A stretch of DNA of 64,000 bases. Origin: Halobacterium litoreum. GTDB taxonomy: Archaea; Halobacteriota; Halobacteria; Halobacteriales; Halobacteriaceae. Position 1 is the first letter of the stretch. Every line of letters starts with the position of its first letter. The stretch is from assembly GCF_021233415.1 (NCBI RefSeq), contig NZ_CP089466.1, positions 930,001 to 994,000 of the forward strand, written 5' to 3'. The position numbers and the translations under genes are program-made. Below the pieces are notes generated by a model. The model did not search any database, was not told the origin of the DNA, and saw only the letters and a list, made by a program, of their open reading frames with translations. Positions 47,390-52,358 of the stretch are shown in pieces.

Positions 47390-48559
47390 ATGGACCCCGA
47401 CTTCTCGCGACTGGACGAATTCCTCGACGAGCGCGGCCTCGACGGCTACGCGTTCCACGACGACGACTCGAACTCCGACCTCCTCTACACCACCGGGTTC
47501 GGCGCACCCGACCCCTTCTTCGCCGTCTACACGCCCGAGGCGACGGGCATCCTCGCGTCCTCGCTGGAGTACGGGCGCGCGAAACGCGAGAGCCGCGCTG
47601 ACGCCGTGAAACGCCTCTCGGACTACGACTTCCAGGCGAAGCGCGCCGAGCACGGCCCGGAGGCCGCCCAGCAGTTGGTGCGCGCCGAGTTCCTCGCGGA
47701 CCTCGGCTGCGAGTCCGTCGCCGTCGGGTCGTCGTTCCCGGTCGGCACCGCCGACGGCCTGCGCGACGAGGGCGTCGCCGTCACCGTCGACGCGGACAAC
47801 GTCGTGATGGACATCCGCGCGACGAAGACCGACGAGGAAATCGAACACGTGCGCACCGCCCAGCGCGCCAACGAGGCGGCGATGGCGCGCGCCGAGGAAC
47901 TGATTCGGGGCGCCGAACCGGTCGACGGCGTCCTCCACCACGACGGCGAACCGCTCACCAGCGAGTTCGTCCAACAGGAGATAGAGATAGAACTGCTCCG
48001 CCACGGCTGTGCGCTCGACGACACCATCGTCGCGGGCGGCGCGCAGGCCGCCGACCCCCACGACCGCGGGAGCGGCCCGCTCGCGGCCGACGAGATGGTC
48101 ATCGTCGACATCTTTCCGCGGGACAAGGCGTCGAAGTACCACGCCGACATGACCCGCACCTTCCTCAACGGCGAGGCCTCCGAGACCCAACGCGAGTGGT
48201 ACGACGTGACCGAGAAAGCCCTCCACGCCGCCCTCGACGTTGTGGAGGCGGGCGTCACCGGCGAGGAAGTCAATCAGGCGGTCGTGGACGTCTACGACGA
48301 CCACGGCTTCCCCACCATCTTCACCGACCCCGAGACGGAGACGGGGTTCATCCACTCGACGGGCCACGGCGTCGGCCTCGACGTCCACGAGATGCCCTCC
48401 ATCTCCCACGGCGGCGACGAACTCCGCGCCGGCCACGTCATCACCATCGAACCCGGCCTCTACGACCCGGACGTCGGCGGCGTCCGCATCGAGGACATAA
48501 TCGTCGTCACCGAGGACGGCTACGAGAACCTCACCGACTACGAGATTTCGCTGGTCTGA
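47390..48559 (+). CDS. M24 family metallopeptidase (Xaa-Pro aminopeptidase-like)
   Basis: 389 aa. The N-terminal creatinase-like domain (1-150) starts [20 protein letters not shown]. The pita-bread domain has metal ligands Asp in [20 protein letters not shown] (both Asp), His in [15 protein letters not shown], Glu in [14 protein letters not shown] and Glu in [13 protein letters not shown]. It likely trims dipeptides or N-terminal residues before proline. It is divergent from aroA with 78 bp between. Confidence 0.9.
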
Positions 48560-48560
48560 G

Positions 48561-49520
48561 TTACCGGTCGCGGTCGGCGGGCATCGGCCGCTCGCTCGCC
48601 AACCGCACCGCGTGGTTCACGAGGTCCTCCATGCGGTCCAGCGACGCGGCCACGTCGTCTATCGGCGCGCCCTCGCAGTCACACGCCTCGTCGAGCGCCG
48701 CGACGTCCGCGCGGACCGCGTCGATGGAGTCCGCGAGGTCCGAGGACAACACGTTCGTCAACTCCATCACGGGGTCCTCGCGGGTGGCGTCGGTGTCCGA
48801 GACGACCGACCGGAAGTGGACCGACAGGCCGTCCTCCGAGGGGAACGCGCGCACCGCGAACGTCTTGTCCAGGGGCGGATAGTACTCGTGGACGGTCACC
48901 GGCTCCTGGGTCGCCATCGCGCGGTGGTACTCGGTGTAGAAGTCGCGCTCGATGGCTTCCGGGAACGCCTCCCAGACGTTCTCGCCGACGACCTCGTCGC
49001 TGTCGACCTCCAGTAACTCCTCGGCGGCGGCGTTCAGGTACGTGAACCGCCAGTCCCGGTCGAGCGCGAAGAAGGCGTCCGTCATGCGCTCGTAGACGTT
49101 CCGCGCGAGCTCGTTCAGCATCGCTACGTCGCGCTCGGCGCGGTAACTCGACGCGGCGTCGTGACACGTCCGCGCCACCGCGGCGAGCGCGTCCTCGGCG
49201 TCGCGCTCGCGGACGTACTCGGTCACGTCCAGCGAGATGGCGTCGGCGGCCACCGAGTCGGCGCCCGCGCGCTCGAACACCACGACCGGCACCGCCGGGT
49301 TCGCGTCGCGAACCAACCGCAGGACGGCGAGCGCGTCGCTTCCCGCGCCGTGTTCCGCGAGAACGCAGTCGGCGGGCGCCGCGGACAGCGCGTCGAGCGC
49401 GCCCGCGCCGTCGGCCGCCGAGCGCACGTCGACGGACGCGAACTGCGGGAGCGAGCGCTCGAACGACGCTCGACTCCGCGCGCTCGCGGCGACCGAGAGG
49501 ACGGCCATGCTGTCGCTCAT
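48561..49520 (-). CDS. Pseudo-receiver - PAS - pseudo-HisKA signalling protein
   Basis: 319 aa. Residues 1-115 look like a receiver domain ([40 protein letters not shown]) but the phosphoacceptor region reads [12 protein letters not shown], without the expected Asp. A PAS domain follows at about 140-245 ([25 protein letters not shown], in parts). The last part, [20 protein letters not shown], aligns with HisKA segments such as L-VLSHDLRNPL, with Ser in place of the His, and there is no ATPase domain. So it is likely a sensor or adaptor without phosphotransfer. It lies downstream of the HalX receiver gene on the same strand. Confidence 0.72.
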
Positions 49521-49553
49521 GGCGGCGTTGTCCGTCCTTGTCGGCGTCAACGT

Positions 49554-50138
49554 TTAGTGGCTTTCGGCCGGTTCGTCCTCGCTGAGGTCTTCGAACACCG
49601 CGAGGAAGTCGGACTCGTCGAGGTCCGCGACGAGTTGGTCGAGGCTCTCCCGGCGCGCCTCGATGTCCTCGCAGAGTTCCTGGTAGCGGTCGTCGTCGCG
49701 CAACTCCTCGGCGGTCTTGCTGGTCTCGAGTGTCGCGCGTTTCGCCGCCAGCGAGAAGTACGCCTGGACCTCGTCGCTGTACAGCGACCGCGCGAGCAGG
49801 CGACTCACCAGTCCCGTCAGTTCCGCTCTGTCGACGGGTTTCACCACGTACGCGTCGATGCCGAGTTCCAGCAGGTCGAAGTCCGGGTCGACCGCGGTCA
49901 CCATCGCCACCTGACAGTCGTACCCCTCCTCGCGGACGGTTTCGAGCACGTCGTCCCCGGAGCTCTCCGGGAGCCGTCGGTCGAGCAACACCACGTCGAC
50001 TTCGTCGTCGAGTTCCGCCAGCGCGTCGGCCGCGCTGTACGCGGTCCGCACGTCGTACGTCGCGTCGAGCCAGTCCGCGAACAGGTCGGCGAGTTCGCGC
50101 TCGTCCTCGACGACGAGAACCGTCGCCGTCCGTGTCAT
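49554..50138 (-). CDS. HalX-domain response regulator
   Basis: 194 aa. The receiver domain (6-120) has EDE at the start (VLVVEDERELADLF), the phospho-Asp in VDVVLLDRRLPESSGDDVL, Thr in VAMVTAVDPDFDLL and Lys in AYVVKPVDRAEL. The C-terminal 65 residues are the HalX helical domain (YFSLAAKRATLETSK, ELRDDDRYQELCEDIEAR). It has no DNA-binding domain, so it acts through protein contacts. It lies 28 bases downstream of the histidine kinase gene, suggesting a cognate pair. Confidence 0.9.
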   Translation of the reverse strand: MTRTATVLVVEDERELADLFADWLDATYDVRTAYSAADALAELDDEVDVVLLDRRLPESSGDDVLETVREEGYDCQVAMVTAVDPDFDLLELGIDAYVVKPVDRAELTGLVSRLLARSLYSDEVQAYFSLAAKRATLETSKTAEELRDDDRYQELCEDIEARRESLDQLVADLDESDFLAVFEDLSEDEPAESH

Positions 50139-50166
50139 TCTACGACCACCAAGTCCGGCGGTCGGT

Positions 50167-51537
50167 TTAGTTCTTTCCCGCGTCCGCGCGGAGGACGACC
50201 GTCCCGTCGTCGCGCACGTCGAGGTCGCCGCCCGCGTGCGACACCACCCAGTAGACGAGCCACAGGCCGACGCCAGAGCCGTGTTCGAGTGACGTCTCTT
50301 CGACGCCTTCGAGCGCGCGCCGCTCGTGCTCCGGGATGCCCGACCCGTCGGCCGCGACGCGGACCGTCGGCGGTTCGGCGCGAGCGACGATTGACACGCT
50401 CGCGGCGTCGCCGTCGGCGTGTTCGGCGGTGCTCTCGAGTAGTTCGCGGACCGCGAGCCTGAGGCGGCGGTCGACGGCGGTCTCGCAGTCTACGGTGACG
50501 TCGAAGGCCACGTCCGGGTACTGCTCGCTCGCGTGCTCGGCTTCCTGTGCGACGACGTCGGCGAGCGGGTCCGTCGGCGCGTCCTCGCTGTCGAGCGAGC
50601 GCTCCAACTGCCGGGCTTTCTCGCTGACCGAGAGCAGTTCCTCGGCGGCCTCCTCGATGCTCTCGACGTCCTCGTCGTCCCCGAGTCGGTCGGTGAGGCG
50701 CCGCGCGCGCCCGAGGACGACGTTCAGCGAGTTCCGGACGTTGTGCCGGAGGACGCGGTTCAGCACGCGCAGGCGCTGGTCGCGTTCCGCCCGCCCGGTC
50801 ACGTCCCGGCACACCCACACGTAGCCGCCGTCGTCCAGCGCCGTCACGGAGATGTCCTGTGGGTAGGTGTGGCCGTCGATTCGGCGCGCTGTCACGGTGC
50901 CATGCCATCGGTCGCGGTCGCCCGCCTCGAACTCCGCGAGGACGGCCGCGAACCGGGTCCGGGTTTCGTCGGGGTACGCCGCCTGCCACTGCTCGCCGAC
51001 GAGCGCGCCGGGGCCGTCGGCGCCGCGGGCGTCGGCGAACGCGTCGTTCGCGTACGAGACGGTACCGTCGTCGTCGACCACGGCGATGCCGTCCATCGCG
51101 GCGTCGAGCGCGCGCCGCAGGCGGACGTGTGAGCGCGCCCGCCACCGGTCGCGCTGGCTGTACGTTCCGGCGATGGCGCCGCCGAGCGCGCCGACCGTGG
51201 TGTGCTGGATGAAAATGTGGTCGACCGCCGCCGTCGCGCCGTACGCGTCGACGAGTATCGCCCACAGGTCGAGCGCGAGCACGAGGCCGGCGCCGCCGAT
51301 GGCCCACGCGAACACGGCGTCGCCGCGGGCACCCCGCGGCCGGCGCGCCCAGAACCAGCCGCCGTACCCGAGCAACGCGACGGCCGGCAGCAGGGTCGCC
51401 GCCGCGACGTCCGCCCGCGGGCCGGCGTGCCCGAGGAAGTGCGCGACGGCCGCGCCGAGGAGGAGGACGCCGAGCGCCGGCACTAGCCACGCGCGAGCGC
51501 CACCGGCGTCGGCGAGCCTGTCTGCCGCCCGAGACAT
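50167..51537 (-). CDS. Membrane histidine kinase with PAS domain and altered N box
   Basis: 456 aa. Four or five hydrophobic segments (17-145), then a PAS domain (about 155-270: ALDAAMDGIAVVDDDGTVSYAN, parts), and the HisKA helix RVLRHNVRNSLNVVLGRARRL with the His. In the ATPase domain the N box reads LLESTAEHADGD, where family members have Asn in LLENA-EH; here it is Ser. G1 reads AADGSGIPEHER with the Asp kept and G2 is SGVGLWLVYWVV. ATP binding may be weakened. It is likely co-transcribed with the HalX receiver gene downstream. ATG 51537 gives MSRAADRLAD. Confidence 0.82.
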   Translation of the reverse strand: MSRAADRLADAGGARAWLVPALGVLLLGAAVAHFLGHAGPRADVAAATLLPAVALLGYGGWFWARRPRGARGDAVFAWAIGGAGLVLALDLWAILVDAYGATAAVDHIFIQHTTVGALGGAIAGTYSQRDRWRARSHVRLRRALDAAMDGIAVVDDDGTVSYANDAFADARGADGPGALVGEQWQAAYPDETRTRFAAVLAEFEAGDRDRWHGTVTARRIDGHTYPQDISVTALDDGGYVWVCRDVTGRAERDQRLRVLNRVLRHNVRNSLNVVLGRARRLTDRLGDDEDVESIEEAAEELLSVSEKARQLERSLDSEDAPTDPLADVVAQEAEHASEQYPDVAFDVTVDCETAVDRRLRLAVRELLESTAEHADGDAASVSIVARAEPPTVRVAADGSGIPEHERRALEGVEETSLEHGSGVGLWLVYWVVSHAGGDLDVRDDGTVVLRADAGKN

Positions 51538-51629: not shown

Positions 51630-52358
51630 ATGGACGTACTCGTGGTGGGCGCGGGCGCCGTCGGTCGCTGGTTCGCCGACGTGGCGGACGCGCCCGTGGC
51701 GTTCGCGGACGTGGACGCCGACCGGGCACAGCGCGCCGCCGAGGACTACGACGGGCGCGCTCGCGCGGTGGACGTGGACAGCGACGAGTCCTTCGGACTG
51801 GTCGCGGTGGCGGTGCCGATGGGGGTCGCGGGCGACGCCATCGAGCGCCACGCGTCGAAGGCCCAGCGCGCCGTCGTGGACTTCACGGGGGAGATGCGGG
51901 GGCCGCTGGCGGCGATGGCGAAAGCGGCGCCGGCACGCGAGCGCGTGAGTTTCCACCCGCTGTTCGCGCCGGAGCACGCGCCCGGACGGGTCGCGGTGAG
52001 TTCGGGCGCGCCCGGCCCCGGCACCGACCACGTCCGCGAGTGGCTGGAGGCGGCCGGCAACGAACTCGTGGACGTCGAGCCGGGCGAACACGACGACGCG
52101 ATGGCGACGATTCAGGGGCGCGCGCACGCCGCCGTGCTGGCGTTCGCGCTCGCCGCCGACGACGTGCCCGACGAACTCGCGACGCCGGTGTACGAGGACT
52201 TGCGCGCGCTCGCCGACCGCGTGACCGGCGGGAACTCGCGCGTCTACGCCGACATCCAGGACGCGTTCGACGGCGCGGACGACGTGGCCCGAGCGGCGAA
52301 GCGACTCGCCGACGAGAACGAGGCGTTCGCGGAGGTGTACGAGGATGCCGGTCGATAG
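51630..52358 (+). CDS. Prephenate dehydrogenase-like NAD-binding protein
   Basis: 242 aa. GAGAVGRWFADVADAP is the NAD-binding loop near 7-22. VAVAVPMGVAGDAIERHASK, VVDFTGEMRGPLAAM, VSFHPLFAPEHAPGR and EHDDAMATIQGRAHAAVLAF follow the TyrA family (the His in SFHPLFAP and H-D-x-AM). It would form 4-hydroxyphenylpyruvate from prephenate for tyrosine, but it is a short, single-domain version. Its stop overlaps the next start by 14 bases. Confidence 0.78.
   Translation: MDVLVVGAGAVGRWFADVADAPVAFADVDADRAQRAAEDYDGRARAVDVDSDESFGLVAVAVPMGVAGDAIERHASKAQRAVVDFTGEMRGPLAAMAKAAPARERVSFHPLFAPEHAPGRVAVSSGAPGPGTDHVREWLEAAGNELVDVEPGEHDDAMATIQGRAHAAVLAFALAADDVPDELATPVYEDLRALADRVTGGNSRVYADIQDAFDGADDVARAAKRLADENEAFAEVYEDAGR

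Follow-up and report, generated by a model that had tools for sequence, protein, structure and literature searches.

The third gene of a minus-strand signaling run in Halobacterium litoreum encodes a protein that probably acts through binding and not through catalysis, since its phosphotransfer residues are gone and its gene adjoins one intact REC-HalX response regulator in most relatives that have it. The best explanation, on which belief and doubt are about evenly balanced, is that this protein partners the HalX regulator under control of its PAS domain and without phosphotransfer. The window, i.e., the whole stretch of 64,000 nucleotides that was analyzed (G000:C1:930001-994000), contains all three genes of the run at the positions given by the first-pass annotation. 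The run and its flanking genes are as follows:

50167..51537, minus strand: membrane sensor kinase (HK), 456 aa; 4TM-like N-terminus, PAS, DHp and HATPase
49554..50138, minus strand: REC-HalX response regulator, 194 aa, identified by Pfam and ortholog alignment
48561..49520, minus strand: third protein, 319 aa from the ATG at 49520; pseudo-receiver, PAS, pseudo-DHp hairpin, no ATPase domain
47390-48559, plus strand: flanking Xaa-Pro-peptidase-like gene, named from a reading of its translation
51630-52358, plus strand: flanking tyrA-like gene, likewise named from its translation

An alternative start for the third protein is a TTG at 49550 (ORF 48561-49550); the ATG at 49520 is preferred because the orthologs of the protein start there. 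Counted from this ATG, 33 bases separate the REC-HalX gene from the third gene, and 28 bases separate the kinase gene from the REC-HalX gene. In an NCBIfam search, the cut-off was reached by a generic PAS-domain model alone and by no full-length family.

Loss of phosphotransfer residues in the third protein

Of 26 Halobacteriaceae genomes, 18 encode the third protein; the arrangement of the locus was mapped in 20 stretches from other genomes of the family. Residue counts exclude G015, in which the third protein is split over frames and the HalX gene is cut at a contig end, and refer to 17 readable members. In the window protein, Pfam detects PAS_4, a Response_reg match below the cut-off (17.7 versus 30.2), and neither HisKA nor HATPase; at E 0.01, PAS_4 is found in 17/17 orthologs, Response_reg in 15/17, and HisKA and HATPase_c in 0/17. 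The first-pass annotation had described a receiver without the phospho-Asp, a PAS domain, a Ser in place of the DHp His (VLSSDLADS) and no ATPase domain, all of which is borne out. It had overlooked that Glu is what replaces the phospho-Asp and that the window pseudo-receiver also lacks the acidic pair, the Thr and the Lys. Two codons mark the altered sites, numbered from the ATG:

49353..49355, minus strand: Glu56 codon, at the phospho-Asp position of the pseudo-receiver; Glu in 16/17 members, Ala in G008
48741..48743, minus strand: Ser260 codon, at the DHp His position, followed by D261-L262-x-x-S265; D261, L262 and S265 invariant in 17/17

Neither the phospho-Asp nor the receiver Lys is present in any member (0/17), the Thr is found in two (G024 and G025), and the second residue of the acidic pair is Asp in two and Glu in one, G003 having no letters there. 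The position of the phospho-acceptor His is occupied by Tyr in eight members, Ser in six, Ala in two and Thr in one, and by His in none of the 17. The Ser is thus not conserved, and its candidacy as a special residue was rejected, Tyr being commoner. Conservation is found instead beside the lost His, with Asp at +1, Leu at +2 and Ser at +5 in 17/17 and an acidic residue at +4 in 15/17; the +5 Ser sits where hybrid kinases have Pro. In alignment, D-L-x-x-S is a new motif, invariant next to the lost His. By comparison, DD, D, T, K and H are all retained in each of the nine full-length hybrid kinases from the order that were aligned.

A pseudogene was considered and rejected, given 17 open frames and dN/dS below 1. 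The ratios, from 0.13 to 0.56 over eight pairs, were obtained by NG86, which gives rough values in GC-rich genes. In the draft genome of G015 (210 contigs), the third-protein gene is broken into three matches and changes frame at least once (L086, G015:C81).

The C-terminal hairpin was compared with canonical DHp domains using hhalign, which returned a probability of 96.0% and a pairwise E-value of 2.1e-9; the HalX helices gave 0.1% and five column shuffles gave at most 0.3%. This comparison of profiles confirms the hairpin as a former HisKA/DHp, a homologous two-helix element without its His. AlphaFold2, run with a 17-row alignment, predicts a receiver fold (pLDDT ~93), a PAS fold (~75 to 87) and, at lower confidence (block pLDDT 54 to 74), a two-helix hairpin at 250-280 and 285-309. 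The predictions are of single chains and give no view of a complex. Foldseek matches of the model are receivers, PAS domains and sensor kinases.

A wider search covered 392 genomes of the order, evenly drawn from a larger group. At E 1e-60, 70 of them have matches. Matches of at least 440 bits are confined to 17 genomes, all in the family, with a partial match in the broken assembly of G015; the next best match scores 255 bits, and no family member was found outside Halobacteriaceae among the 392 genomes (matches there of at most 255 bits). A further scan of genome contigs gave eight loci, all within the family. Twenty regions were fetched, one of them holding a G018 paralog. Their related REC-PAS proteins all keep the receiver Asp, and 13 are full kinases. 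Twelve of the 20 entered the residue table (nine full kinases and three proteins without an ATPase domain); the Asp of the remaining eight was read by eye. The three proteins without an ATPase domain (L136:3771-4730, L137:519-1436 and L138:3829-4671, all on the minus strand) come from one genus of another family and combine an intact receiver and a PAS domain with a degenerate hairpin. No two-component gene was found beside them among the neighboring ORFs listed. They likely represent parallel loss, and the same architecture may have arisen there independently.

The ancestor of the third protein would have been a hybrid kinase of REC-PAS-HisKA-HATPase layout. Its ATPase domain, DHp His and receiver chemistry were probably lost before the sampled family members diverged, and the protein would afterwards have been kept under purifying selection, nearly always beside one REC-HalX regulator.

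The neighboring REC-HalX regulator

The window's HalX gene is an ordinary intact member of the REC-HalX response regulators, and the unusual thing is its neighbor. Pfam detects Response_reg and HalX (73 bits, cut-off 23.2), and the protein has the acidic pair, the Asp, the Thr/Ser, the Lys and the HalX domain. The first-pass annotation was right to call the receiver intact, as E11, D12, D53 and K100 are invariant in 18/18 orthologs; dN/dS ranges from 0.11 to 0.47 over 11 pairs. A search for structural relatives of HalX outside the receiver gave no lead. The same genome has a second HalX locus, where an intact REC-HalX protein (L147:5046-5630, minus strand) overlaps an intact GAF/PAS kinase (L147:3152-5068, minus strand). 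A 177-aa REC-HalX-like protein is also encoded there (L147:2579-3112, minus strand), with a receiver that, by eye, seems to lack the acidic pair and the Thr.

Profile searches of whole genomes separate the orthologs of the HalX gene (at least 289 bits) from its paralogs (at most 242 bits). The ortholog is present in 18 genomes including that of the window, plus the partial copy in G015, and none was found anywhere in the genomes of G012 and G023. Across the 26 genomes, the third protein and the HalX ortholog co-occur in 17; the third protein is found without HalX in one, HalX without the third protein in two and neither in six. The orthologous HalX gene adjoins the third gene in 17 of the 18 genomes with the third protein, across four genera, although such synteny tallies are not independent of phylogeny. 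The occurrence of the third protein alone (G023) and of HalX without it (G013 and G018) means that neither gene strictly needs the other.

The membrane kinase is a less constant neighbor. Among the 20 stretches from other genomes, all three genes occur in seven (G007, G008, G010, G011, G014, G016 and G017), the third protein and HalX without the kinase in eight (G003, G004, G005, G006, G009, G019, G024 and G025), the kinase and HalX without the third protein in two (G013 and G018), and the kinase alone (G012) or the third protein alone (G023) in one each; in G015, the presence of the kinase is undecidable. Counted with the window, the kinase is at the locus of the third protein in 8/18 genomes and absent in 9/18, including all genera other than Halobacterium. 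There is therefore no conserved three-gene "graded" array. Since eight of the 17 loci with the third protein and HalX have no kinase, HalX must there either receive phosphate from a source outside the locus or operate in another way.

The membrane kinase

Pfam detects PAS_4 and HATPase_c (36.1 bits, cut-off 26.4) in the kinase. The N-box Asn, which serves Mg-ATP, and the G1-box Asp, which serves adenine, are hallmarks of the kinase ATP site. The first-pass annotation correctly read a Ser for the N-box Asn (LLESTAEH); it missed two further changes, so that the full set is N369S, A370T (N-box Ala to Thr) and D396A. The codons concerned, and that of the intact phospho-acceptor, are:

50431..50433, minus strand: Ser369 codon (AGC), replacing the N-box Asn; Asn in 10/10 orthologs
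50350..50352, minus strand: Ala396 codon (GCC), replacing the G1-box Asp; Asp in 10/10 orthologs
50743..50745, minus strand: His265 codon, intact phospho-acceptor of the DHp (LRHNVRNSL); invariant in 11/11

The Asn-Ala pair and the G1 Asp are retained in all 10 other kinase orthologs, which are syntenic, and the changes are private to the window. Six sites that are invariant elsewhere are changed in the window kinase, three of them in the ATP site. A sequencing slip is unlikely because the substitutions hit separate codons in a long open frame, seen in one strain. The window's genome has 24 HATPase_c matches, of which ~20, read by eye, are of the kinase type; among these, only the window kinase lacks the G1 Asp, and one further domain lacks the N-box Asn. 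The latter (L178, G000:C1:1241966-1242235) has, by eye, Phe at this position and a poor G2 box. Elsewhere in the genome, a kinase ATPase domain extends over two reading frames (L175/L177, G000:C1:1627294-1627589), reflecting a frameshift or an assembly error. A literature search on N-box mutants found no paper.

Relative-rate counts compared the window with its sisters G018 and G013 using seven outgroups; the grouping with these sisters has a support of 0.739 in a neighbor-gene tree. Over the whole kinase, the window/sister counts are, e.g., 40/43 (G010 as outgroup), 39/40 and 42/48, and a general acceleration of the window kinase was therefore rejected. In the ATPase region, they range from 16/9 and 17/10 to 14/20. 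With no excess over the whole protein and with changes in the ATP site, it follows that the kinase has been kept overall and the ATP site has not. dN/dS over seven pairs is 0.15 to 0.56.

On this evidence, the window kinase is a probable lineage-specific pseudokinase, dead-looking in this organism only. The gene may instead be starting to decay, with substitutions that have no function of their own, a serious possibility that we nonetheless lean against and that concerns the kinase only and not the third protein. Confinement of the changes to one genome and a dN/dS of 0.34 between window and sisters, versus 0.15 between the sisters, would fit decay, but the frame is open at full length, the relative-rate counts resemble those of the sisters and the DHp and PAS domains are conserved. 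That the kinase is active despite Ser369 and Ala396 is very unlikely. While the G2 box and His265 are kept and the HATPase score is above the cut-off, both hallmark residues are replaced, in a genome where such losses are almost confined to this protein. As a pseudokinase, it would have lost kinase activity along with the two ATP-binding residues; if it acts at all, it probably does so through phosphatase activity, by binding a receiver or by contributing the acceptor subunit to a heterodimer. It would represent a separate input, present at this locus in the genus Halobacterium only.

The first-pass annotation had proposed a graded loss of phosphotransfer residues within one array. This does not hold, as the loss in the kinase is private and that in the third protein is ancestral, making them separate events. 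Canonical residues in homologs, named there as evidence of a local variant, are found for the kinase (Asn and Asp in 10/10) and count against its part of the claim; the part on the third protein stands, His and phospho-Asp being absent in 17/17. An apparent reciprocal loss, in which the window keeps the third protein with a crippled kinase and G013 and G018 lost the third protein and keep an intact kinase, was set aside as an anecdote because seven other genomes have both, with the kinase intact.

A proposed binding role for the third protein

The DHp hairpin is the surface by which kinases hold receivers. Judging from its residues, the third protein cannot donate phosphate through a His in the usual way. 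Its conserved pairing with the HalX gene favors, as far as gene order can, the suggestion of the first-pass annotation that it is a docking partner for the HalX receiver. The PAS domain would read a cytoplasmic signal and shape a homodimeric pseudo-DHp hairpin, gating and dimerization being suggested by the domain families. The hairpin may then dock on the intact HalX receiver as a histidine kinase would, with no phosphate passed, and the third protein, in the manner of DivL toward DivK, could thereby read, hold or compete for HalX or its phosphorylated form (HalX~P). The Glu pseudo-receiver is probably locked in one state, as a dimerization or intramolecular part.

DivL is a Caulobacter pseudokinase with Tyr for His, whose DHp binds the receiver DivK~P and whose CA domain is described as dispensable (PMC4211667). 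The parallels are a PAS domain followed by a DHp, the replacement of His by Tyr (Ala in one DivL relative), a CA domain that is dispensable in DivL and absent from the third protein (PMC4211667), and pairing with a receiver protein, which for the third protein means gene adjacency in 17/18. The third protein is not a DivL ortholog of PASn-DHp-CA architecture, as HATPase_c is matched in 0/17. DivL keeps the CA domain and has several PAS domains, and the description consulted gives it no N-terminal pseudo-receiver (PMC4211667); in the third protein, by contrast, the residue varies among Tyr, Ser, Ala and Thr, and the presumed partner has a HalX output domain. The domain order, the missing ATPase domain and a predicted role in protein-protein interaction are shared with archaeal REC-(PAS)n-HisKA proteins that lack HATPase (PMC5847659). 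Unlike those proteins as they are described there, the third protein lacks the phospho-residues of both receiver and DHp, has a HisKA invisible to Pfam and has a known conserved neighbor gene. Pseudo-receivers with Glu at the phospho-Asp site have likewise lost DD, T and K; the third protein differs from those described in being archaeal and fused to PAS and pseudo-DHp domains (PMC12632262).

Several observations weigh against docking. Gene adjacency could reflect shared transcription only, a two-helix bundle could just self-dimerize, and G023 keeps the third protein without a HalX ortholog, as G013 and G018 keep HalX without the third protein. The failure of Pfam to detect HisKA in any of the 17 members and the lower confidence of the predicted hairpin count on the same side. 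The third protein might then be a free-standing PAS sensor or dimeric adaptor with another partner, placed beside HalX through co-transcription only. We consider this rather unlikely. Its invariant columns, which lie mostly in the PAS domain and the helix ahead of it, are consistent with such a role, as is G023, and the 2018 archaeal census treats the interaction partners of ATPase-less REC-PAS-HisKA proteins as unknown (PMC5847659). However, one HalX ortholog adjoins the gene in nearly every genome that has it, and a DHp-like hairpin with an invariant motif beside the lost His has been retained. We give very little credence to a third reading, in which the protein would influence the membrane kinase through a DHp-DHp heterodimer and HalX is only the end target. 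RetS-GacS heterodimers of this kind have been described (PMC6944256), and the three genes occur together in the window and in seven further Halobacterium loci, but half of the genomes with the third protein, including every genus other than Halobacterium, have no such kinase at the locus.

Literature searches, within the paper collection they covered, found no study of the third-protein/HalX pair and none on an HTR-like protein in Halobacterium, and a search on HoxA-like proteins led nowhere. The phospho-Asp is missing from about 10-15% of archaeal receivers, and the 2025 review that gives this figure states, in its treatment of archaeal pseudo-receivers, that its authors are aware of no published functional study (PMC12632262). 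The 2018 census also gives the function of HalX as unknown (PMC5847659). Natural gene-loss variants (G013, G018, G023 and G009) are available for comparison. The preferred reading extends, more tentatively and with doubt somewhat outweighing belief, to a family-wide archaeal module, where one HalX regulator would have as its dedicated non-catalytic regulator a protein whose phosphotransfer domains are both dead, the receiver frozen with Glu and the DHp lacking His and bearing D-L-x-x-S, an independent instance of the DivL principle that needs no cognate kinase at the locus. The conserved two-gene pair joins three gaps, namely how archaeal pseudo-receivers work, what HalX does and which partners ATPase-less REC-PAS-HisKA proteins have.
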